Source: Bacillota bacterium
GTDB taxonomy: Bacteria > Bacillota > Sulfobacillia > Sulfobacillales > Sulfobacillaceae
DNA: 48,664 bases
NCBI GenBank assembly: GCA_021841025.1
Contig: JAKBWA010000006.1
Coordinates: forward strand, 1-48,664
Direction: 5' to 3'
Below are positions 28,712 to 39,090 of this stretch, piece by piece (position 1 is the first letter of the stretch; the number at the start of each line of letters is the position of its first letter). The position numbers and the translations under genes were made by a program. Below the pieces are notes generated by a model, which did not search any database, was not told where the DNA came from, and was given only the letters and a program-made list of their open reading frames with translations.

Positions 28712-29179
28712 TCAAATAAAGAGCGAAATCTTTGCTTCCCTCGCGAAATCCAAAAACGTCGCAGCACCCACCACATCTTCCACTTCTGGCACTAAATCTT
28801 CGCGTTTTACCCCCAGCACGTCCATAGACATCTGGCAAGCCACCATATGCACTCCCATCTCCTTGGCCTCTGAGACAAAGTCGCGAACCGTCATTACGTT
28901 GGATTGAGCAAACTGGTTTTTCATCATAGAAGACACCATTTTAGTACCGAAGGGAACGACTCCAGCAACCTTGGCCAGGGCAGGCATTCCGGGGTTCCCG
29001 GCGATCGATACCGAAAGATTGTCAATTTTGTCCTTATGGATCACATCCAAGCCCCAAAAAGTAAAAAACAACATGCATTCCATATCCATAGCTGCCGCCG
29101 CTGTCGCCAGAATAAACGGCGGATATGCCATGTCCAGACTTCCTTTAGATACGATGATGGCTAAACGGTCTTGCTCCAC
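28712..29179 (-). CDS. DsrE/DsrF-family sulfur-transfer protein (DsrE2-like)
   Basis: 155 aa. Starts RLAIIVSKGSLDMAYPPFIL, then the Met-rich MDMECMLFFTFWGLDV, and has the conserved Cys in GVHMVACQMSMDVLGV. This is the DsrE2 pattern of proteins that carry persulfide sulfur with TusA and rhodanese, feeding the Hdr-like sulfur-oxidation pathway in sulfur oxidisers. GTG 29179 follows GAGGAGGGA. Here it stands alone: no tusA, rhodanese or hdr genes adjoin. It suits the proposed Sulfobacillus origin. Confidence 0.85.
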   Translation of the reverse strand: MEQDRLAIIVSKGSLDMAYPPFILATAAAAMDMECMLFFTFWGLDVIHKDKIDNLSVSIAGNPGMPALAKVAGVVPFGTKMVSSMMKNQFAQSNVMTVRDFVSEAKEMGVHMVACQMSMDVLGVKREDLVPEVEDVVGAATFLDFAREAKISLFI

Positions 29180-29967: not shown

Positions 29968-31098
29968 TCAGGCACCGGCCGTTCCATGCATGCCGAAGCT
30001 TATGGATGCCTTGTGAGACCAACCTCCTGTCACCCATTGGTTTATCATGACACTCATGTGAGACTCAAGACGGCTCGTTTGTGCCGAGTTCATCAGGCCC
30101 ATTGATTTTACGTTTAGCAGGCGTGTTTTCGCATCACTGAGAAGCGTTGCCTCTAAGGCCTTCGGCGAGGAGCCAGCATGTGTCGCCATCTGCGCTGGGG
30201 TCTGCCCCGAGTGTAAATCAGCTCGGAGCGTGCCCACGGACATATGAAGACTCTGGGCCGTCTTCTCCAGCAATATGCCCATGATCCCCTTTACTCCCTT
30301 TCCCCACGAACGGGAAGAGTGCTGCCATTGTGCGGGGTTTTGGGTGACGAGATGGTCAATGCCGACACCCATATGGGCATCAAGTACATTCGCTTGAGCT
30401 CGTGTTAAAACACCAACGGACACACCCTTCTGAATCTGAGAGCGGGCATCTTGCAATAATGCCGTTTCGAGAGCACTGGCTGATGATCCGGCGTTGTTCG
30501 CAATCTGAGCCAGACTCTTATGCGATTTCATGTCTTTTTGTACCGTAGTCGGTGATATGTGAAGAGCTGAGCTGACGTCATTAACCAGCATTCCCATCAT
30601 AACCTGAGCACCTTGGTGCGCCACGAGCTTTTGCCATTGAACGGGGCTTTGTCCCATTATTTGGCTGAACCAAGCATTCAAATGAGAGTCAAGGCGGTTT
30701 GCCTGCGAAGAAGTGAACAACCCTGCAACAACAGCCTTGTGAATCTCAGCTTGCGCATCTTGAATTAGGGCTTGTTTAAGGGCTGACGCCGATGACCCCG
30801 CATGCTGAGCAATCTGATTCAGATTTTGACCGGAATTCAGTTCCTGTTCGACTTTAGCCGGGGAAATATGCAAGGCATTGGCCACGCCTTGGGTCAACAT
30901 AGCCATGATATTGCCCTCAGGTCCTGCCCCAACCCCCAACGGAGGATGGCCTTCGGGGCTGTTAACAGTGCGCGGGCCCGCATTGACCACGGGATGAGAG
31001 TTCTTATTGAATTGGGCATTATGAGAGACAGTGATCGCTGCCACCGTCCCACCCCCGACAAATACACTCGCGGCCACCCAAGCTAACGATTTGATCAT
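29968..31098 (-). CDS. Exported protein with three tandem helical repeats
   Basis: 376 aa. An N-terminal hydrophobic segment (SLAWVAASVFVGGGTVAAI) looks like a signal peptide or anchor without a clear cleavage site. Three repeats follow at residues 72-156, 175-259 and 280-360. Each has a core ALHISPxxVxxxLxSGxxLxQIAxxAGSSxxAL, then a xLLxDAxxxI helix, then a GxLTxxQAxxLxxHM segment. Similar modules (a GQSLAQIA-type core followed by an LTxEQA helix) occur in exported Firmicute and Actinobacterial proteins of unknown role. It is divergent from the two-component genes at 31441, with an inverted repeat in between, so it may be their target. Confidence 0.8.
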   Translation of the reverse strand: MIKSLAWVAASVFVGGGTVAAITVSHNAQFNKNSHPVVNAGPRTVNSPEGHPPLGVGAGPEGNIMAMLTQGVANALHISPAKVEQELNSGQNLNQIAQHAGSSASALKQALIQDAQAEIHKAVVAGLFTSSQANRLDSHLNAWFSQIMGQSPVQWQKLVAHQGAQVMMGMLVNDVSSALHISPTTVQKDMKSHKSLAQIANNAGSSASALETALLQDARSQIQKGVSVGVLTRAQANVLDAHMGVGIDHLVTQNPAQWQHSSRSWGKGVKGIMGILLEKTAQSLHMSVGTLRADLHSGQTPAQMATHAGSSPKALEATLLSDAKTRLLNVKSMGLMNSAQTSRLESHMSVMINQWVTGGWSHKASISFGMHGTAGA

Positions 31099-31192
31099 CG
31101 AACGTCCACGCTCCTTCTACCTGTGCTAAACTCCATTCTGTAGTGATCTCCGCAATATGGGCGCCAAAAGCCCCCTCTTCTCAGTAAAACCC

Positions 31193-31213
31193 TAACAGGT
31201 TTCCAAACTGTTA
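31193..31213. promoter_or_regulatory. Inverted repeat in the divergent promoter region
   Basis: TAACAG (31193-31198) and CTGTTA (31208-31213) form an inverted repeat with a 9-bp centre, between the exported repeat protein and the response regulator. It is a candidate operator for the OmpR-type regulator. The rest of 31099-31440 shows no gene. Confidence 0.4.
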
Positions 31214-31425
31214 CAACCCAGGATTTTGAGGGATGCTTGTTCAGATGAAAACTCACATCACGCAAAGCTTTCAACCACCCTCGCCCCCTAAGCGTTTGAA
31301 CCCAGCTTAAAATTCCCGACTCAGCAAAAAACTCAGCCCAATGTTACACCTGAGCGTGCATCTTTACAAATGCCGGCAACCGAAAGCTCGAGGCTGGCAA
31401 AGTCCTTGCACAACTTCAGCTGTGC

Positions 31426-31431
31426 TAGAAT
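31426..31431 (+). promoter_or_regulatory. Extended -10 promoter of the two-component genes
   Basis: TGCTAGAAT (TG-n-TAGAAT, hexamer at 31426-31431) is an extended -10 element. The expected transcription start, about 7-9 bases on, falls right at the TTG at 31441, which matters for choosing the regulator's start codon. Confidence 0.5.
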
Positions 31432-31440
31432 GAGGCTAGG

Positions 31441-32217
31441 TTGAAAGGGCAAGGAGGGACAACCACCATAAGCAATCAAGCGGGACAAAACCGCACTTTA
31501 GAGGACTCGGGTGCGGATCTTTTGATTGTCGATGATGATGAGGGCATCTTAGAACTGTTAACCGCTTACGGACGGCTGAATGGATGGCAGACGGTTGCGG
31601 TAACTTCTCTTTCCGCTGCTCTCAAGGTGTTAGCTTATTCTCAGCCTTCGGTGATAATTCTGGACTGGCAGTTGCCCGACTCGGATGGACTGTCATCTAT
31701 CCAAACCTTACGCCAGAAAACCTCCTCGCCTATTCTTATGTTGACGGTACGAAACAAGGAGTCCCACATTATCGAAGCTTTAAATTTAGGGGCGGATGAC
31801 TATGTCGTCAAGCCGTTTAGCCCGGGCCAAGTCATGGCGCGTTGCCAGGCCTTGCGCCGCCGCCAAGGGGGCCGGGTCCGGGACGATGGCAAAGAGATGA
31901 TCACCACTCATGATTTGGTCATTGACTTAAATCGCCGCCAATGCTTTAAACGAGGGATCCTCATCAATCTCTCCACCCTCGAATTTGACCTGTTAACTTA
32001 TTTGGCACGCCATAAGGGACGAGTTTGGACCCGGGACGAATTGCTGGAAAGGATTTGGGGAGATGTGGGAGACACGTTTGATCGGGCTGTTGACGTGGAG
32101 ATCGGGCGGCTACGGAAGAAATTGGACGATCTTCCGGACAATCCAACATACATCGAAACAGTACGGGGAGTGGGATACCGATGGCGCGACGAGACCGCTT
32201 CGCCCGACCAGCCGTAG
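31441..32217 (+). CDS. OmpR/PhoB-family response regulator
   Basis: 258 aa if TTG 31441 is the start. The receiver domain has acidic pocket VDDDE at residues 30-34, phospho-acceptor Asp75 in ILDWQLPDSDG, and Lys in YVVKPF. The winged-helix DNA-binding domain covers the C-terminal 100 residues (LSTLEFDLLTYLARHKGRVW, ETVRGVGYRW). The best ribosome site, AAGGAGGG (31451-31458), points to an ATA at 31468, not to a usual start. The TTG lies at the predicted transcript end. The kinase gene overlaps its last 37 bases, so the pair is co-translated. Possible targets are the divergent repeat protein and the SHOCT genes. Confidence 0.93.
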   Translation: MKGQGGTTTISNQAGQNRTLEDSGADLLIVDDDEGILELLTAYGRLNGWQTVAVTSLSAALKVLAYSQPSVIILDWQLPDSDGLSSIQTLRQKTSSPILMLTVRNKESHIIEALNLGADDYVVKPFSPGQVMARCQALRRRQGGRVRDDGKEMITTHDLVIDLNRRQCFKRGILINLSTLEFDLLTYLARHKGRVWTRDELLERIWGDVGDTFDRAVDVEIGRLRKKLDDLPDNPTYIETVRGVGYRWRDETASPDQP

Positions 32218-33239
32218 GAATTTGGCTTTTGGCAACCATGACCACAATCATCGGCATAGGGATTGTCGTTCTGGGAGGGAATTGGTGGGTATCGGCCAGC
32301 CATCTTTCCGGGCCTTCGCAGAAGGCGGCTTATATTGTGCTGTCATTGCCCACACTCTTCATTATCACGTTCGGGGCATGGATTGTGTCGACCTATATTG
32401 AACGCACGGTATTAGGCGATCTGTCCAGTATTGTTGAATGGATTAATCTGGTGGATGAAGAGCACTTTAATCCCCTGCCGGTGTCTGACATCGGGCCCTG
32501 GGGCCAACTCACTTATGCCCTCAATCAAATGGCCACCCGGCTGAAAGCCGCGCAAAAAGAACGGGACGTATTTCTTGCCAGTGTCGCCCACGAATTAAAA
32601 ACTCCTTTATCAGTACTGCGCGGCAATCTTGAGGGCCTGACCCAGGGCGATCTGACTCCGACACCCGAACGCTGGGCTGCCTTAACCCGGGAAATTAACC
32701 GCCTGACCCGTTTGGTCAATGATTTGCTCTTTATTGAAACTTTGCGCCATTCTCCTGGGGTCTGGAATCCCTCCTATTATGAGCCTTGCGAGCAGCTCTC
32801 CCGGCTCGTATTGCGTTTCGAGCCCTTAACCGAGATGAAACACGTGCATATGAAAATCGAGTGCCAAGTGCATGAGGTGTTTCTTGATCCTGACCGCATG
32901 GAACAGATTCTGGTAAATTTGGTGGATAACGCACTGAGACATTCACCAGAAGGAGGAGATATCTCCATTCACTTGCAACAAATAGAAAAACCTGCGATAA
33001 AGACGGTCAATGCCCCCACTGTGATACTTGAATGGTGCGTTGAAGATTCAGGTCCGGGATTTTCTCCCGAATCTGTTCCGTTCGTCTTGCAACCATTCTT
33101 CCGCGATCCGCGTTCGCCCGGAGCAGGCTTGGGACTGGCTGTGTCGGCGGCATTAGTTCAGGCACAAGGGGGATCCTTAGAAATCGAGAACAGTGATCGA
33201 GGCGGAGCCAAAATTTGCATACGCCTTCCTGCCCATTAG
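32181..33239 (+). CDS. Sensor histidine kinase
   Basis: 352 aa. Two membrane helices (about 12-33 and 50-70) enclose only about 15 outside residues, so it probably senses membrane state or a partner rather than a ligand through a large sensor domain. A HAMP-like linker follows. HisKA has His137 in ASVAHELKTPLS. HATPase has N-box NLVDNALRHSP (Asn250), DSGPGF and GAGLGLAV. ATG 32181 lies inside the regulator gene behind GGGGAG. It partners with the response regulator upstream. Confidence 0.94.
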   Translation: MARRDRFARPAVGIWLLATMTTIIGIGIVVLGGNWWVSASHLSGPSQKAAYIVLSLPTLFIITFGAWIVSTYIERTVLGDLSSIVEWINLVDEEHFNPLPVSDIGPWGQLTYALNQMATRLKAAQKERDVFLASVAHELKTPLSVLRGNLEGLTQGDLTPTPERWAALTREINRLTRLVNDLLFIETLRHSPGVWNPSYYEPCEQLSRLVLRFEPLTEMKHVHMKIECQVHEVFLDPDRMEQILVNLVDNALRHSPEGGDISIHLQQIEKPAIKTVNAPTVILEWCVEDSGPGFSPESVPFVLQPFFRDPRSPGAGLGLAVSAALVQAQGGSLEIENSDRGGAKICIRLPAH

Positions 33240-33259
33240 AAGCCCGGCATACTTAGGCG

Positions 33260-33472
33260 TTAGGACTTCAATCTTTGACGGATTTTCTCATATTCCTCCA
33301 ATGTAATTTCACCGCGGGCCAGACGCAATTCCAATATGGCCCGCGGATCGTCTTCTCGGCGCCGAATATCACGGTGACTGCGAATCCAATACCAGATCCC
33401 GAGTCCCAAAAGAATAATAAGACCGAACCACAGGACATTCGAAATCCACATCATGGTCATCATACCGCCCAT
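33260..33472 (-). CDS. Small membrane protein with SHOCT domain
   Basis: 70 aa. Met-rich N-terminus (MGGMMTMMW), one membrane helix (VLWFGLIILLGLGIWYWI), then a SHOCT module (DPRAILELRLARGEITLEEYEKIRQRL). AGGAGGT precedes the ATG by ten bases. It ends 20 bp from the convergent kinase gene. SHOCT modules are thought to mediate oligomerisation. A paralogue lies at 33795-34043. Confidence 0.88.
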   Translation of the reverse strand: MGGMMTMMWISNVLWFGLIILLGLGIWYWIRSHRDIRRREDDPRAILELRLARGEITLEEYEKIRQRLKS

Positions 33473-33567
33473 TAATTTGGACCTCCTGCTTAGTATTCTA
33501 GCGTGACTCCGGCAAACTCACAACGAATCAGAGCCTCATTGATTAGCAAAGACGGAGGGTATAAAAC

Positions 33568-33630
33568 ATGACAAAAAGTTTTAAGAAAATTTCCCTTTTG
33601 CATAAATCCGTAAGGAAACTTCTCGGCTAG
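33568..33630 (+). CDS. Possible 20-residue basic peptide
   Basis: ATG 33568 follows GGAGGG by about eight bases and encodes MTKSFKKISLLHKSVRKLLG, a basic, helix-prone peptide. It lies in the 322-bp gap between the two SHOCT genes, on the opposite strand. Real translation is uncertain. The rest of the gap (33473-33794) shows no gene. Confidence 0.25.
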   Translation: MTKSFKKISLLHKSVRKLLG

Positions 33631-33794
33631 GATCAGGATAACTTCCAATACGGCGGAGGGCGATCGTGCTACTCACTGCCCTTCGCCAGGCCCCTTGAAG
33701 AGTCCACTTGTTTAGCGAATCATCTCAATTCCCATTGGTATTATTTCAGCCTCGTTTTTTTCTTCAATCACCTAAGGCGCATTCGCTTCTTTGA

Positions 33795-34043
33795 TTAATC
33801 TTTCAAATGCGCCCGCAACATCTCGTATTCATCTGGGGTTAACTCACCTTTCGCCAAACGCATTTTCAATTGTCTTAAGGGATCAGTCGGTTTGCTGCCG
33901 AAAGATCGCCTGGAACTGGAAATGGCGTATTTAATCGCAGCCAATATGCCAACGAAAATTAACCCCATAAAGATCAGTCCAAACCCCAGCATTAATATCG
34001 CCCAGGTACCGTTAAAACCGCCGTGAAAACCCCAACCCATCAT
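33795..34043 (-). CDS. Small membrane protein with SHOCT domain (paralogue)
   Basis: 82 aa from ATG 34043 (ATG 34040 possible), set by AGGAGGT nine bases upstream; the open frame reaches 34154. It has MMGWGFHGG, one long membrane helix (AILMLGFGLIFMGLIFVGIL), then SHOCT (DPLRQLKMRLAKGELTPDEYEMLRAHL). It has the same layout as the protein at 33260-33472, so the two look like a duplicated pair beside the two-component genes. Confidence 0.88.
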   Translation of the reverse strand: MMGWGFHGGFNGTWAILMLGFGLIFMGLIFVGILAAIKYAISSSRRSFGSKPTDPLRQLKMRLAKGELTPDEYEMLRAHLKD

Positions 34044-34220
34044 GATAAACCACCTCCTGTATCTCAATGATGACGCGGGTTGGTAACGTCGTTGTGTCAG
34101 TTTTGTAACAGCACGGTAACAAAAAACATTCCCACAGGAATGCCGTCGTTCCAATCGCCATTAATGCACTCTTTTTGCTACGTTCTAACAATGATTGGCC
34201 TTTCTCAAACTGTCCTCGAC

Positions 34221-34517: not shown

Positions 34518-35591
34518 CTATAGAGAAACTCGTCCATTCGAATGCTTAGAATCTTTTCGAAAATGTTCCCACATCGGTTCACCCAACCGGGGTTCCCAAC
34601 TTTCGGGCAAGCTCGGAACGCGATCCCACAAGCCAGCCTCTTCGCTGGCAAACCATGAAGCGCTCTCTTCATCACGTTTTTTTACCCTTTGCCATTCATC
34701 ATCGATAATTGCTTGAATCTTTTCTAAGGACTCTTCTTGGCCGGCTTGGAACAAGTGCCGAAAACGCCCTTGAAGCGCCAGCCATTTCACTACCGGAATC
34801 CTCGGCGCAGGTTGGTAGGTCAACCGCCACCTTCCTTCAATCACCTCCACCAGAGGCCAGTATCTAGAGTCTACAGCTAAGCGCACCACCAATACCGCAT
34901 CTCGCGGTTCATGACCCCAACCTGGAGGGCACGCAGAGAGAACATTGATAAAGGCGGGACCTTCAGCGTGGTAAGCCCGCTGAACCTTGTTACTTAAGTC
35001 CTGCCAATGTGACATCGCGGCTTGAGCGACGTAGGGAATCCGGTGAGAGGCTACGATTTCGACGATATTTTTGCGAGGTTCGGGTTTGCCCATGGCTGCT
35101 CGTCCTGCCGGGCTGGTCGTAGTGGACGCCCCAAAAGGGGTGGCGCTGGATCGCTGGATTCCTGTATTCATATAAGCTTCATTGTCATAACACACATAGA
35201 TGAACCGCTGCCCGCGTTCCAATGCTCCCGACAGGGCCTGCAGGCCAATGTCATAGGTTCCGCCATCACCGGCAAATACCACCAGGGTCATAGCTTCCGA
35301 CAGTTCACCGCGTGCTCTCAATGCATGGTATGCGGCTTCCACGCCGCTGGCCACCGCGGCAGAATTTTCAAAGGCGACGTGAATCCAGGGAACTTTCCAT
35401 ACGGTAAAAGGATACCGGGTGGTGGCTACTTCCAGGCAACTGGTGGCGTTTATCACCGCCACAGGTCCCGGGATACTAGAGAGAACAGTTCGGACAATAC
35501 TGGGAATGCCGCATCCCCGGCATAATGAATGCCCGGATCCGAACCGCGGATTTTGTTGCGAATGTGATGCCATTTCTTTTATGTTGGCCAT
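34518..35591 (-). CDS. porB: 2-oxoacid (pyruvate):ferredoxin oxidoreductase, beta subunit
   Basis: 357 aa. Thiamine-diphosphate subunit with GHSLCRGCGIP at the N-terminus, and GDGGTYDIGLQALSGALERG with YDNEAYMNTGIQRSSATP forming the cofactor and Mg2+ site; Cys residues for an iron-sulfur cluster are CRGC, and Cys in ACPPGW. Together with PorA it decarboxylates pyruvate or a related 2-oxoacid to acyl-CoA, reducing ferredoxin. AAGGAGGG precedes the ATG, 12 bp after porA. The Y-MNTG-Q-S-TP pattern favours pyruvate, but 2-ketoisovalerate is possible. Last gene of the operon. Confidence 0.93.
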   Translation of the reverse strand: MANIKEMASHSQQNPRFGSGHSLCRGCGIPSIVRTVLSSIPGPVAVINATSCLEVATTRYPFTVWKVPWIHVAFENSAAVASGVEAAYHALRARGELSEAMTLVVFAGDGGTYDIGLQALSGALERGQRFIYVCYDNEAYMNTGIQRSSATPFGASTTTSPAGRAAMGKPEPRKNIVEIVASHRIPYVAQAAMSHWQDLSNKVQRAYHAEGPAFINVLSACPPGWGHEPRDAVLVVRLAVDSRYWPLVEVIEGRWRLTYQPAPRIPVVKWLALQGRFRHLFQAGQEESLEKIQAIIDDEWQRVKKRDEESASWFASEEAGLWDRVPSLPESWEPRLGEPMWEHFRKDSKHSNGRVSL

Positions 35592-35603
35592 GACCTTCCC
35601 TCC

Positions 35604-36815
35604 TTATGTCATATGCCAAACCTTGTTCCCGAAAAGATAACAGGCGGCATTGTTAGGAAAACGATCAGCCACTATCCCTTCCAACACGTCTTGAAGCCCC
35701 GCCACAGATACGTTCCGACCGCCCAATCCATAGATGACACTAATCAGTTTTGACATCTTGTCAATGCTTGCGGCGACGTCTAAAAACAAAGGCGGAAAGG
35801 TCCCCGGCGAGCTGGCCTTGTCCAACACCGCTATTTTCGAAATCCGGGACAGAGCTTCTTTGACGGCATTTCGGGGAAATGGACGAAATAAGCGGATCTC
35901 GACTAATCCCACCATTGCCCCTTGAGCACGCATATGGTCCACGACCTCTTTAGCGGTTCCCGCATGTGATCCCATCATGACTAATGCGGCTTCAGCATCT
36001 TCCAGTCGGTATGTTTCGACAGCTTGATAGCTGCGTCGGGACAAGTGGAAGAAATCATCGGCTACTTTTTCGAATACTGTCAAAACATTTTGCAGGGATT
36101 CAATTTGTTGGTACTTTAACTCAAAATAGGTATCCGGCATGGAAAAGGGACCATAGGTCCCCTTTTTCTCATCCAACAAGGGGAAGGGATACGCATAAGG
36201 ACCAACAAAGTCTTTTACTGCCGAATCAGGCAGCAAGTCTACCGCTTCAGCACTGTGGGTAATAGTGAATCCGTCAAGTCCCACCATAACTGGCAATAAC
36301 ACCTCTTGATGTTCTGCCAGTTTCGTCGCGATAAGTGTCAGATCGTAGGCTTCTTCCGCACTTTCCGCAAATATTTGGATTGCTCCGCTGTCACGGGCCA
36401 GCATGGCATCGGAATGATCACCATGGATGTTAATGGGACCAGAAAGCGCCCGGTTTCCTACAGCTATGACAATAGGGGCCCTTAGGGAAGCCGCCAGGTA
36501 AATGATTTCGACCATAAGTGCCAATCCTTGGGAGGCCGTAGCTGTCATCGCCCGCGCACCGGCCAATCCAGCCCCAATGGCTGCGCTCATGGCCGAATGT
36601 TCCGATTCAACGTCCAATATGTGGGTATGGCACAGCCCATCTGCCACGAACTGGCTCAACGTCTGAATGATCGGCGTTTGGGGAGTAATGGGGTAGACAG
36701 GAAACACGTCCGGATCGATTTGACGCATGGCGTGGGCCACTCCTTGGGCCCCGGTCATCACCCGCAAGTGACTGAGATCTTTCCCGGGATTATGAAAGAA
36801 AATCCGTGGCGTCAT
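35604..36815 (-). CDS. porA: 2-oxoacid (pyruvate):ferredoxin oxidoreductase, alpha subunit
   Basis: 403 aa. Has the VMTGAQGVAHAMRQIDPDVF then VYPITPQTPIIQTL opening and the ESEHSAMSAAIGAGLAGARA region, both typical of PorA domain I, and a C-terminal domain II (KIAVLDKASSPG). Start ATG 36815 sits nine bases from AAGGAGGT and overlaps the stop of the gamma/delta gene as ATGA, so translation is coupled. The frame itself opens at 36845. Confidence 0.94.
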   Translation of the reverse strand: MTPRIFFHNPGKDLSHLRVMTGAQGVAHAMRQIDPDVFPVYPITPQTPIIQTLSQFVADGLCHTHILDVESEHSAMSAAIGAGLAGARAMTATASQGLALMVEIIYLAASLRAPIVIAVGNRALSGPINIHGDHSDAMLARDSGAIQIFAESAEEAYDLTLIATKLAEHQEVLLPVMVGLDGFTITHSAEAVDLLPDSAVKDFVGPYAYPFPLLDEKKGTYGPFSMPDTYFELKYQQIESLQNVLTVFEKVADDFFHLSRRSYQAVETYRLEDAEAALVMMGSHAGTAKEVVDHMRAQGAMVGLVEIRLFRPFPRNAVKEALSRISKIAVLDKASSPGTFPPLFLDVAASIDKMSKLISVIYGLGGRNVSVAGLQDVLEGIVADRFPNNAACYLFGNKVWHMT

Positions 36816-37753
36816 GAGGTGGGCACCTCCTTCAACTCTCCCCACGCTCCCACCTTTGTGGTTTCACTGACCATGTGAACGGCCTGGGTAGGACATACCG
36901 CATCACATATTTCACATCCTTTGCAAAAATCATAGTCAAACCCCAAAAACATATTGCCTTGAATGATGACTGCACCGTCGGGGCAAAACTGCCAGCATAA
37001 AAGACAATTCACACAACGATCAAGGTGTACTGCCGGTTTTTTCCCCATACGCCATCCTCCGGTTAAGGGTACGGGATAATCGTCTGGGCGAATCATGGCT
37101 CCGGGGCGTGCAAATGGAGTGCCCTCCACAGCCACTGCCGCAGAAGAAGATTGCAAGCCGGATTGGACTCTCCTCTCTTCCCTTGTGTCGTCTAAGACCC
37201 TTAGAGCACTAACTCCATAGGTATAACCTGCTTGCACTGATTTCCGGTTGTGGTCACGGGCGGATTCTGGCAAAAGGGCCATGACTTCGTCAACGGCTGT
37301 AACGAGTTGATCCACCGAAGGCTCGCCCAACAAGGCGGCGAGAACTCCTACCATGACCGTATTCGCATGTTTCGCCCCGGCTTTTTGCGCTATCTCATCG
37401 GCAGGCACCATCAAAACCGATCCTTCTACATCAGAAAGAGAGATTGTCGGGTCCGATCTGCCGGTGTTGACAATCAACAATCCTTGAGAGTCCAGTCCTT
37501 CCGTGACATTTTGTTCCCGTATCAAGGCGGGATCCAAAACGACTACCACATCAGGCGCAATAATGGCCGCATGCAGTCGTATCGGTTGCTCATCAATACG
37601 GGTATAAGCCATCATGGGGGCACCGCTTCGTTCCGGTCCGTATTCGGGAAAGGCCTGAGGGTAACGCCCTGCATCCAGAAAAGCCACGGCAAGCAATTGC
37701 GATGCCGTTTTAGCGCCTTGCCCGCCTCGACCATGAAATCGTATTTCCAGCAT
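36812..37753 (-). CDS. POR fused gamma and delta (ferredoxin) subunit
   Basis: 313 aa. The gamma domain (residues 1 to about 185) starts with MLEIRFHGRGGQGAKTASQL. A linker joins it to a delta-type 2x[4Fe-4S] ferredoxin domain with CVNCLLCWQFCP and CKGCEICDAVCP. Archaeal enzymes encode these as separate PorG and PorD; here they are one chain. Its ATG at 37753 shares one base with the stop of the flavoprotein gene. It carries electrons from the thiamine site to the external acceptor. Confidence 0.93.
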   Translation of the reverse strand: MLEIRFHGRGGQGAKTASQLLAVAFLDAGRYPQAFPEYGPERSGAPMMAYTRIDEQPIRLHAAIIAPDVVVVLDPALIREQNVTEGLDSQGLLIVNTGRSDPTISLSDVEGSVLMVPADEIAQKAGAKHANTVMVGVLAALLGEPSVDQLVTAVDEVMALLPESARDHNRKSVQAGYTYGVSALRVLDDTREERRVQSGLQSSSAAVAVEGTPFARPGAMIRPDDYPVPLTGGWRMGKKPAVHLDRCVNCLLCWQFCPDGAVIIQGNMFLGFDYDFCKGCEICDAVCPTQAVHMVSETTKVGAWGELKEVPTS

Positions 37754-39090
37754 TATTTCTCACCTGCCAGATATTGATGGATTCCTTTCGCGGCCCGTTT
37801 CGCCCATTTCACCGCTTCGACGACACTTTGACCTCCTGTCAGATCGCCGCCGGCAAAATACTTCGGATTTTCCGTCTGCCCGCTTTTAGGATCAACGACA
37901 AGTTGTCCGTGTTCGAATCGCAATCCGGGCACCCACGCACTCAACTCTTGGCGCACAGATTGGCCGATAGCGATTATGGCACTATCAGCTTTGAGAGTAA
38001 AGAAGGCTCCTGGGATCGGCCGGGGTATGGGCCTGGAACCCCTATCTGACACCAGTTGCTGGTACTGACACTCGACACCTTCCAACCAGGCACTGCCAAG
38101 AAAACGCACGGGCGAAGCCAGCCAGTTAAACCGGATTCCTTCTGTTTCAGCCTCCTGAATCTCGTATTCATAAGCAGGCATAGACTCTCGGCCTCTGCGG
38201 TAAACAATGCTAACTGTATCCGAGCCCAGGCGCAATGCTTCCCGGGCGACATCAAGGGCGGTATTGCCTCCTCCCACGACTATCGTTGAACGCCCCACCG
38301 TTAGAGGATCTCCTTCCTTTAAGGCACGGATAAACGGCAAGGCCTGCCAAACACCAAAGAGATGCTGACCCGGCAAGCCAGGGTCAACATCAGCACCCAG
38401 ACCTACCCCAAGGAATATGGCATCATTCTCGGCTTCTACGGCTAAGAAGGCGTCACGGCTGGCAAGACGGGTATTAAGCCGAAATTCCACCCCCTGTAGC
38501 AACAAGGGCCGAATTTCGTCGTCCAGAGGTTCAACCCGCTGTCGATAAGGCGCAATGGCATACCGAATCATACCGCCGGGTCCAGGGTTTTCGTCGTATA
38601 TTGTCACCTTAAAATTCATACGGATTAGTTCAGAGGCCAGACTAAGACCACTTGGCCCCGCACCAATCACGGCAACACGCCACGTCCTGTCTTTGGTCGA
38701 GGGAAAAGACGCCTCCCAAAGACGGGGGGAAAAATCGGCTGCTGCCCTTTGCAAGCGGCCAATCTCCACCGGACGCAAGCCGACATGAGACAACACACAA
38801 GCTCCTTCACATAACACAGGCGTAGGACAAACCCGAGCGCAAGTTCCTGCTAAAGGATTTTCAGCAAATACTTTCTCATTGGCAGAGACAAAATCACCCC
38901 GGTGAAGGGCAGAGATGAACCCGGGGATGTCAATTCCGCTAGGACAACTGAGGCTGCATGGTGCAGGATGGTAAATCCCTCCACAATCCAAACACCGACT
39001 GGCTTCCTCCTGAATTTCGATTGATTTCAAAGGGGGTTTGAGTTCCTGAAAAGCTTCTTGAAGCCGAAACGGCATCGTTCTTGCCACCAC
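37753..39090 (-). CDS. GltD-like NAD(P)H-dependent flavoprotein of the POR operon
   Basis: 445 aa. The N-terminal iron-sulfur domain has CLDCGG, CSLSCP, CARVCP and CEGACV, as in glutamate synthase small subunit and NfnB-type proteins. An FAD site GAGPSGLSLASEL (about residue 140) and NAD(P) site GGGNTALDVAREA follow, then GGDLTGGQSVVEAVKWAKRA. It is first in the operon, overlapping the gamma/delta gene by one base. It likely moves electrons between ferredoxin or POR and NAD(P)H. A glutamate synthase role is less likely, as no large subunit is present. GTG start at 39090. Confidence 0.92.
   Translation of the reverse strand: MVARTMPFRLQEAFQELKPPLKSIEIQEEASRCLDCGGIYHPAPCSLSCPSGIDIPGFISALHRGDFVSANEKVFAENPLAGTCARVCPTPVLCEGACVLSHVGLRPVEIGRLQRAAADFSPRLWEASFPSTKDRTWRVAVIGAGPSGLSLASELIRMNFKVTIYDENPGPGGMIRYAIAPYRQRVEPLDDEIRPLLLQGVEFRLNTRLASRDAFLAVEAENDAIFLGVGLGADVDPGLPGQHLFGVWQALPFIRALKEGDPLTVGRSTIVVGGGNTALDVAREALRLGSDTVSIVYRRGRESMPAYEYEIQEAETEGIRFNWLASPVRFLGSAWLEGVECQYQQLVSDRGSRPIPRPIPGAFFTLKADSAIIAIGQSVRQELSAWVPGLRFEHGQLVVDPKSGQTENPKYFAGGDLTGGQSVVEAVKWAKRAAKGIHQYLAGEK

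Follow-up and report, generated by a model that had tools for sequence, protein, structure and literature searches.

Secreted accessory proteins can damp or tune signalling by a histidine kinase, as CpxP does with CpxA, and envelope-stress kinases use a layout with a very short loop outside the membrane. Two auxiliary proteins, induced by the regulator of the same system, convert the short-linker kinase SaeS into a phosphatase (PMC4388633). SHOCT-like domains have a proposed role in assembling membrane complexes and are found in membrane-stress systems (PMC11237479, PMC3581485), and a plasmid-like region of Sulfobacillus thermotolerans Kr1 encodes CopZ, CopA, CsoR and rusticyanin (PMC6803676). 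Here, we analyze a locus in which the gene for an exported repeat protein lies beside an OmpR-type sensor pair (response regulator and histidine kinase) and two genes for small membrane proteins, SHOCT-A and SHOCT-B. The window, i.e. the whole stretch of DNA analyzed, comprises 48,664 nucleotides and represents one complete contig (JAKBWA010000006.1, assembly GCA_021841025.1) of the 3.39-Mb, 118-contig genome of an acid-loving mining bacterium of the genus Sulfobacillus.

We suggest that two units probably meet at this locus, a regulatory core concerned with copper or electron transfer and a separate family of repeat proteins, possibly CpxP-like accessories. The observations behind this proposal are gene order and its conservation, the position and conservation of a DNA box, the family-wide adjacency of repeat-protein genes to sensor pairs and the relationship of a copper protein to rusticyanin. 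A first-pass annotation of the DNA had instead treated the four gene types as one envelope-sensing module, whose conserved co-occurrence a neighborhood survey should reveal. However, of the 41 repeat-protein loci surveyed in the class (40 from relatives, plus the window), just two, those of the window genome and of S. benefaciens AMDSBA1 (G006), combine the repeat protein with the kinase-regulator-SHOCT set, and a conserved four-gene module is rejected. The features of the locus are as follows.

29968–31098, minus strand: gene for the exported protein, 376 residues with three 83-residue helical repeats (open reading frame [ORF] call, repeat comparison, predicted unit structure)
30646–30894, minus strand: repeat unit 1, residues 69–151
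30337–30585, minus strand: repeat unit 2, residues 172–254, the unit used for structure prediction (predicted local distance difference test [pLDDT] 92.7)
30022–30270, minus strand: repeat unit 3, residues 277–359
31199–31214, minus strand: conserved 16-base promoter element of the repeat-protein gene, GTAACAGTTTGGAAAC, found as an exact copy in the genome only before this gene
31441–32217, plus strand: OmpR-family response regulator, start codon uncertain (domain hits)
32181–33239, plus strand: histidine kinase with two membrane spans and a loop of about 15 residues, in an intramembrane-sensing layout (domain hits, hydropathy)
33260–33472, minus strand: SHOCT-A, 70 residues, encoded tail-to-tail with the kinase, with a Met-rich N terminus, one membrane span and a SHOCT-like C terminus
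33795–34043, minus strand: SHOCT-B, 82 residues, a Met-rich membrane protein with a SHOCT domain
34082–34121, minus strand: predicted regulator box upstream of SHOCT-B, four half-sites with an 11-bp period

The kinase-regulator-SHOCT core and its copper-gene neighbors

Kinase, regulator and SHOCT proteins are a conserved core. A close relative of the kinase (E ≤ 1e-40) is encoded in 8 of the 41 genomes searched, and in all eight the SHOCT-A and kinase genes meet tail-to-tail, with stop-to-stop gaps of −3 to 21 bp. The regulators of the window and of G006 fall inside a clade of SHOCT-locus regulators (13 rows, support 100/98).

Domain hits place the regulator in the OmpR/PhoB group (Response_reg 84.3 bits, cut-off 30.2; Trans_reg_C 97.1 bits, cut-off 26.2), and its gene overlaps that of the kinase. 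The called start of the regulator, a TTG at 31441, is uncertain. As a TAGAAT hexamer resembling a −10 element stands just before this TTG and a AAGGAGGG stretch lies inside the called ORF (31428–31470), the true start is probably located further downstream. The kinase contains HATPase (78 bits) and HisKA (51 bits) domains and two predicted membrane spans (about residues 10–34 and 48–71), which leave a loop of about 13–15 residues by hydropathy; with this predicted topology it fits the intramembrane-sensing histidine kinases, which combine HisKA/HATPase with two helices and a very short linker. The first-pass annotation was thus right in giving the kinase almost no outside sensor loop and, as confirmed by domain hits and gene coordinates, in describing the repeat-protein gene as divergent from the OmpR/kinase pair. 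Its description of two Met-rich SHOCT membrane proteins stands for SHOCT-B, which scores 33.7 bits for SHOCT (PF09851; cut-off 27), while SHOCT-A stays just under the same cut-off (26.0 bits, E 7.4e-6) and is therefore called SHOCT-like.

Copper genes accompany the core in relatives. SHOCT and rusticyanin-like genes adjoin in G002, G004, G005 (S. thermotolerans Kr1), G008, G009, G018 and G031; the SHOCT gene is followed by a gene for an exported, rusticyanin-like protein of 230–300 residues and then often by a methyltransferase gene. In G031, a rusticyanin-like gene separates the box from the kinase gene, all on one strand. In G018, the pair adjoins a copper ATPase and a CsoR-type repressor, and G004 and G005 have a copper ATPase within about 10 kb. 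The sole strong rusticyanin-like gene of the window genome resides apart from the window, on contig C89, and the gene after it encodes a membrane protein whose family has no Pfam model. We use the name rusticyanin-like because these proteins miss the TIGR03095 equivalog cut-off of 146.7 bits (100.7 bits for the own protein, 91–105 bits for the three tested in relatives), while the own protein matches solved rusticyanins at 7e-16. The first-pass proposal is partly supported: its kinase-regulator-SHOCT part is conserved, and its general envelope-sensing role is replaced by what seems the better description, a core linked to copper and rusticyanin.

A box of four half-sites, TGTTACC-N4-TGTTACA-N4-TGACACA-N4-CGTTACC, lies upstream of SHOCT-B; tandem spacing of this 11-bp type is typical of OmpR-family sites. 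The exact pattern TGTTACN5TGTTAC has two copies in the 3.39-Mb genome, one upstream of SHOCT-B and the other at C89:2116–2132, about 165–180 bp upstream of the rusticyanin-like gene. When T or G was allowed at the fourth position of each half-site, 32 sites were found in 20 genomes, 19 of them upstream of SHOCT, rusticyanin-like or associated membrane-protein genes (own genome 2/2, G006 1/1, G018 2/2, G002 3/4, G004 2/3, G005 2/3, G031 2/3, G009 5/8, G001 0/1). Eight genomes chosen as lacking the module had five relaxed sites, none before such genes. The 25 loci collected because they carry SHOCT, kinase, regulator or rusticyanin-like genes cover 355 kb and contain 17 sites, compared with 0.1 expected from base composition.

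These data are consistent with a model in which DNA binding, gene activation, the copper or redox input and the functions of the SHOCT and repeat proteins are all predicted from sequence. Having no sizeable outside sensor domain, the kinase would read the membrane or a membrane partner, the input most likely being the copper or redox state at the membrane, as judged from neighboring genes only. The phosphorylated regulator would most likely bind arrays of 11-bp-spaced TGTTAC half-sites and activate SHOCT-B and, on the other contig, the rusticyanin-like blue copper protein together with the downstream membrane protein. The SHOCT proteins, each with one span and a short cytoplasmic helical hairpin, would most likely be kinase partners or feedback regulators, and the repeat protein may have come to adjoin the SHOCT-type pair in this branch. 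The sensor pair, the DNA box and the list of targets make the proposed control directly testable.

Some relatives show altered versions of the core. In G002 (L099:7425–9024), the reading frame of the orthologous regulator gene is broken and one internal stop interrupts the kinase gene; two SHOCT-rusticyanin boxes look intact there despite the broken regulator. Adjoining the same sensor-SHOCT locus, G002 also encodes a 571-residue protein in which the membrane protein associated with the module is fused to a sulfocyanin (SoxE) domain (L099:11005–12720; 41.6 bits, above cut-off). In G012 (L111/L251), a regulator ortholog (52%) lies beside a SHOCT gene, an adjacent kinase was not detected, and the neighboring genes appear universal-stress-like by eye. 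Downstream of the SHOCT genes in the window (34518–39090, minus strand), a run of four genes resembles, by eye, 2-oxoacid:ferredoxin oxidoreductase subunits and a GltD-like flavoprotein. Rfam and tRNA scans gave no matches, and promoter and terminator scans yielded about as many hits as expected from shuffled sequence.

A family of exported helical repeat proteins

The repeat protein starts with a hydrophobic N-terminal segment, as seen by hydropathy. Its three repeats exhibit pairwise identities of 46, 35 and 37%, compared with 7% (maximum 17%) in 2000 shuffles. The first-pass annotation had recognized an exported protein with three repeats at residues 72–156, 175–259 and 280–360, close to the boundaries listed above; its repeat length of about 100 residues has to be corrected to 83. 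It had also proposed structure prediction of one repeat, and a single unit (17 rows, pLDDT as listed) is indeed predicted with good confidence to consist of three short helices followed by a long hairpin, five helices in all. A model of the full-length protein was poor (pLDDT 56.6) and was set aside.

Comparison of the unit with the Protein Data Bank (PDB) revealed no significant fold match; the best Foldseek hit had an E of 2.3 and the best VIA hit a Z of 6.7 with a root-mean-square deviation of 2.4 over 47 residues, and no CpxP/Spy chain appeared among the matches listed. A PDB search with the repeat-protein sequence returned nothing under E 0.07. The window protein scores 18.3 bits for DUF2680 (PF10925), below the cut-off of 25, whereas four of ten repeat proteins from distant relatives (L160, L163, L164, L167) exceed it. 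In several relatives, the 57-residue DUF2680 model spans only the helical hairpin at the C-terminal end of the unit; the three helices before it lie outside the model. Homology of the unit to CpxP/ZraP was not detected by hhalign (probability ≤1.0%), and the LTXXQ model was absent from the domain hits of the repeat protein at E ≤ 1. Scattered hits to LysM, HTH, S20, DSBA and other Pfam models were weak and lacked consistency, and we treat them as chance matches. In profile comparison, the repeat hairpin showed a weak similarity to SHOCT (16% probability), from which we claim no homology. The repeat protein is a member of an undescribed, widespread family of predicted exported, all-helical repeat proteins with no Pfam model of its own.

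The protein is present in 35 of 61 genomes, the own genome included, and in the five other genomes of the same genus with a match (G001–G005) it is encoded away from the core. In a sample of 299 genomes from the phylum, a profile of the unit matched 44, and these matches supplied a phylum set of 59 loci. A single script found an OmpR-type regulator-kinase pair within 600 bp of the repeat gene at 30 of the 59 phylum loci and at 10 of the 41 class loci, in counts to which some genomes contribute several loci and in which related genomes are not independent. The class count would rise to 11 with L040, where the kinase lies at 60 bp and the regulator in an overlapping frame, and L172 and L228, with one partner only, were left out. 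By chance, about 0.6% of genes would be expected to flank an OmpR-type pair (122 effector domains in 14 genomes, about 42.5 Mb, one gene per kb). The repeat family thus recurrently adjoins OmpR-type sensor pairs, far above chance, and does so in three layouts, with the repeat gene following the pair, preceding it or divergent from it. In a tree of 69 regulators, the 36 other repeat-linked regulators are spread over several clades outside the SHOCT clade, indicating that the repeat family is paired with different sensor lineages. At least two label changes are forced and four occur in the best tree, where long branches on several rows make the exact joins unsure.

Repeat-protein genes share a promoter element, GTAACAnTTTGGAAACA, with 12–16 of 16 positions retained in 18 upstream regions and a mean match of 14.3, versus 9.3 in shuffles; these 18 regions were picked from the 41 loci after inspection, leaving 23 unscored. 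The element resembles the regulator box (GGTTTCC-N4-TGTTACA vs TGTTACC-N4-TGTTACA). Downstream of the repeat-protein gene lies a gene for a DsrE2-type sulfur carrier (28712–29179, minus strand; DrsE_2, 158 bits), and this neighborhood is kept in G006 (L022) and G002 (L021), even without a sensor pair.

Alternative explanations

Several results weigh against the idea that a copper-linked core and a separate repeat family meet here. A reversed-pattern control gave 23 sites, near the 32 of the relaxed box, so that the case rests on where the sites lie, and 13 of the 32 have no SHOCT, rusticyanin-like or membrane-protein gene. The perfect box was not found in G008, G012 and G035 although relatives of the module are present, and in the window neither the regulator gene nor SHOCT-A has a box upstream. 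G006 has the core, with only a weak rusticyanin-like match (30%). In addition, the promoter element of the repeat-protein genes is retained in G003, G014, G020 and G021, whose best matches to the window regulator are 39–43% identical. Since the element is kept where a close regulator is missing, control of the repeat protein by the window regulator is not indicated, and direct control is probably absent. The wider first-pass view that the repeat protein goes with sensor pairs is supported at the level of the family; its suggestion that the protein could be signal, target or modulator is a conjecture as regards the adjoining kinase.

The repeat protein might still serve the adjoining kinase as an accessory that is secreted, contacts the short loop or the spans and damps or tunes signalling. 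Its divergent position, as in cpxP/cpxRA and zraP/zraSR, argues for such a role, as do the strong link of the family to sensor pairs and the retention of the linkage in two species at 60% identity. Yet just 2 of the 41 class loci pair a repeat protein with a SHOCT-type system, the promoter element does not track the window regulator and the profile comparison with CpxP/ZraP gave a probability of about 1%; we regard a role at this particular kinase as doubtful. Alternatively, the repeat protein could be an independently regulated, exported cell-surface protein that became adjacent by a chance rearrangement, with the core alone as the functional unit, an explanation that we consider quite possible. 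It would account for the 31 of 41 class loci at which the script found no adjacent sensor pair, and for G002, which encodes the nearest repeat protein (67%) away from any pair and whose regulator gene is broken. Moreover, intergenic conservation between the window and G006 lies mainly in the leader and promoter element that belong to the repeat-protein gene itself; as this promoter is kept without a close regulator, an operator shared by regulator and repeat protein is unsupported. The family's position beside sensor pairs at half of the phylum loci is difficult to reconcile with chance adjacency.

A different alternative concerns the core, which could be a general membrane or cell-wall stress system to which the copper-protein link is secondary. 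The short-loop layout is shared with envelope-stress kinases, and the best NCBIfam match of the kinase is BaeS, albeit at 139.5 bits against a cut-off of 500. SHOCT-like domains also occur in membrane-stress systems of the PSP/Lia type (PMC11237479). On the other hand, the genes preceded by boxes encode SHOCT, rusticyanin-like and associated membrane proteins, and the neighbors in relatives are copper genes, rendering a general stress system improbable. We retain the proposal of a probably copper-linked core joined by a member of a separate repeat family.

Comparison with described systems

A description of this system was not found in the literature searched on SHOCT, two-component, copper, rusticyanin and DUF2680. 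SaeRS with SaeP/SaeQ resembles the core in its two-helix kinase, the very short outside linker and two small extra genes (PMC4388633), and the predicted box upstream of SHOCT-B would fit an auxiliary protein induced by the regulator. The Sae auxiliaries, however, are a lipoprotein (SaeP) and a membrane protein (SaeQ), neither described there as SHOCT, and no copper protein is part of that system (PMC4388633); we liken SaeP/SaeQ to the SHOCT proteins by arrangement, not by tested homology.

The kinase-regulator-SHOCT core is also present in S. thermotolerans Kr1, where its neighbors include a rusticyanin-like gene and a copper ATPase, and this Kr1 locus probably lies inside the published plasmid-like region. 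In the window genome, by contrast, the core and the rusticyanin-like gene are found on separate contigs. The main text of the Kr1 report contains neither the word SHOCT nor the word two-component (PMC6803676).

With CpxP/CpxRA and ZraP/ZraSR of Escherichia coli, the window shares a gene for an exported protein divergent from a sensor pair. It differs from both in that the protein consists of repeated 83-residue units and in that the adjoining kinase has almost no outside loop. The GxLTxxQ turn of the repeat unit resembles the LTxxQ motif. As the layout is that of cpxP and homology was not detected, the repeat protein may work in a CpxP-like manner outside the CpxP family. The repeat family, flanking sensor pairs at half of the phylum loci, offers a concrete entry point to the accessory proteins of two-component systems in Gram-positive bacteria. 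As a tentative extension, we suggest that the 83-residue repeat might define a Gram-positive family of exported accessory proteins for OmpR-type pairs that corresponds to CpxP/ZraP but arose separately. It would have been recruited repeatedly to different lineages; in the window, its partner would be a short-loop kinase with SHOCT feedback proteins and control over a blue copper protein.

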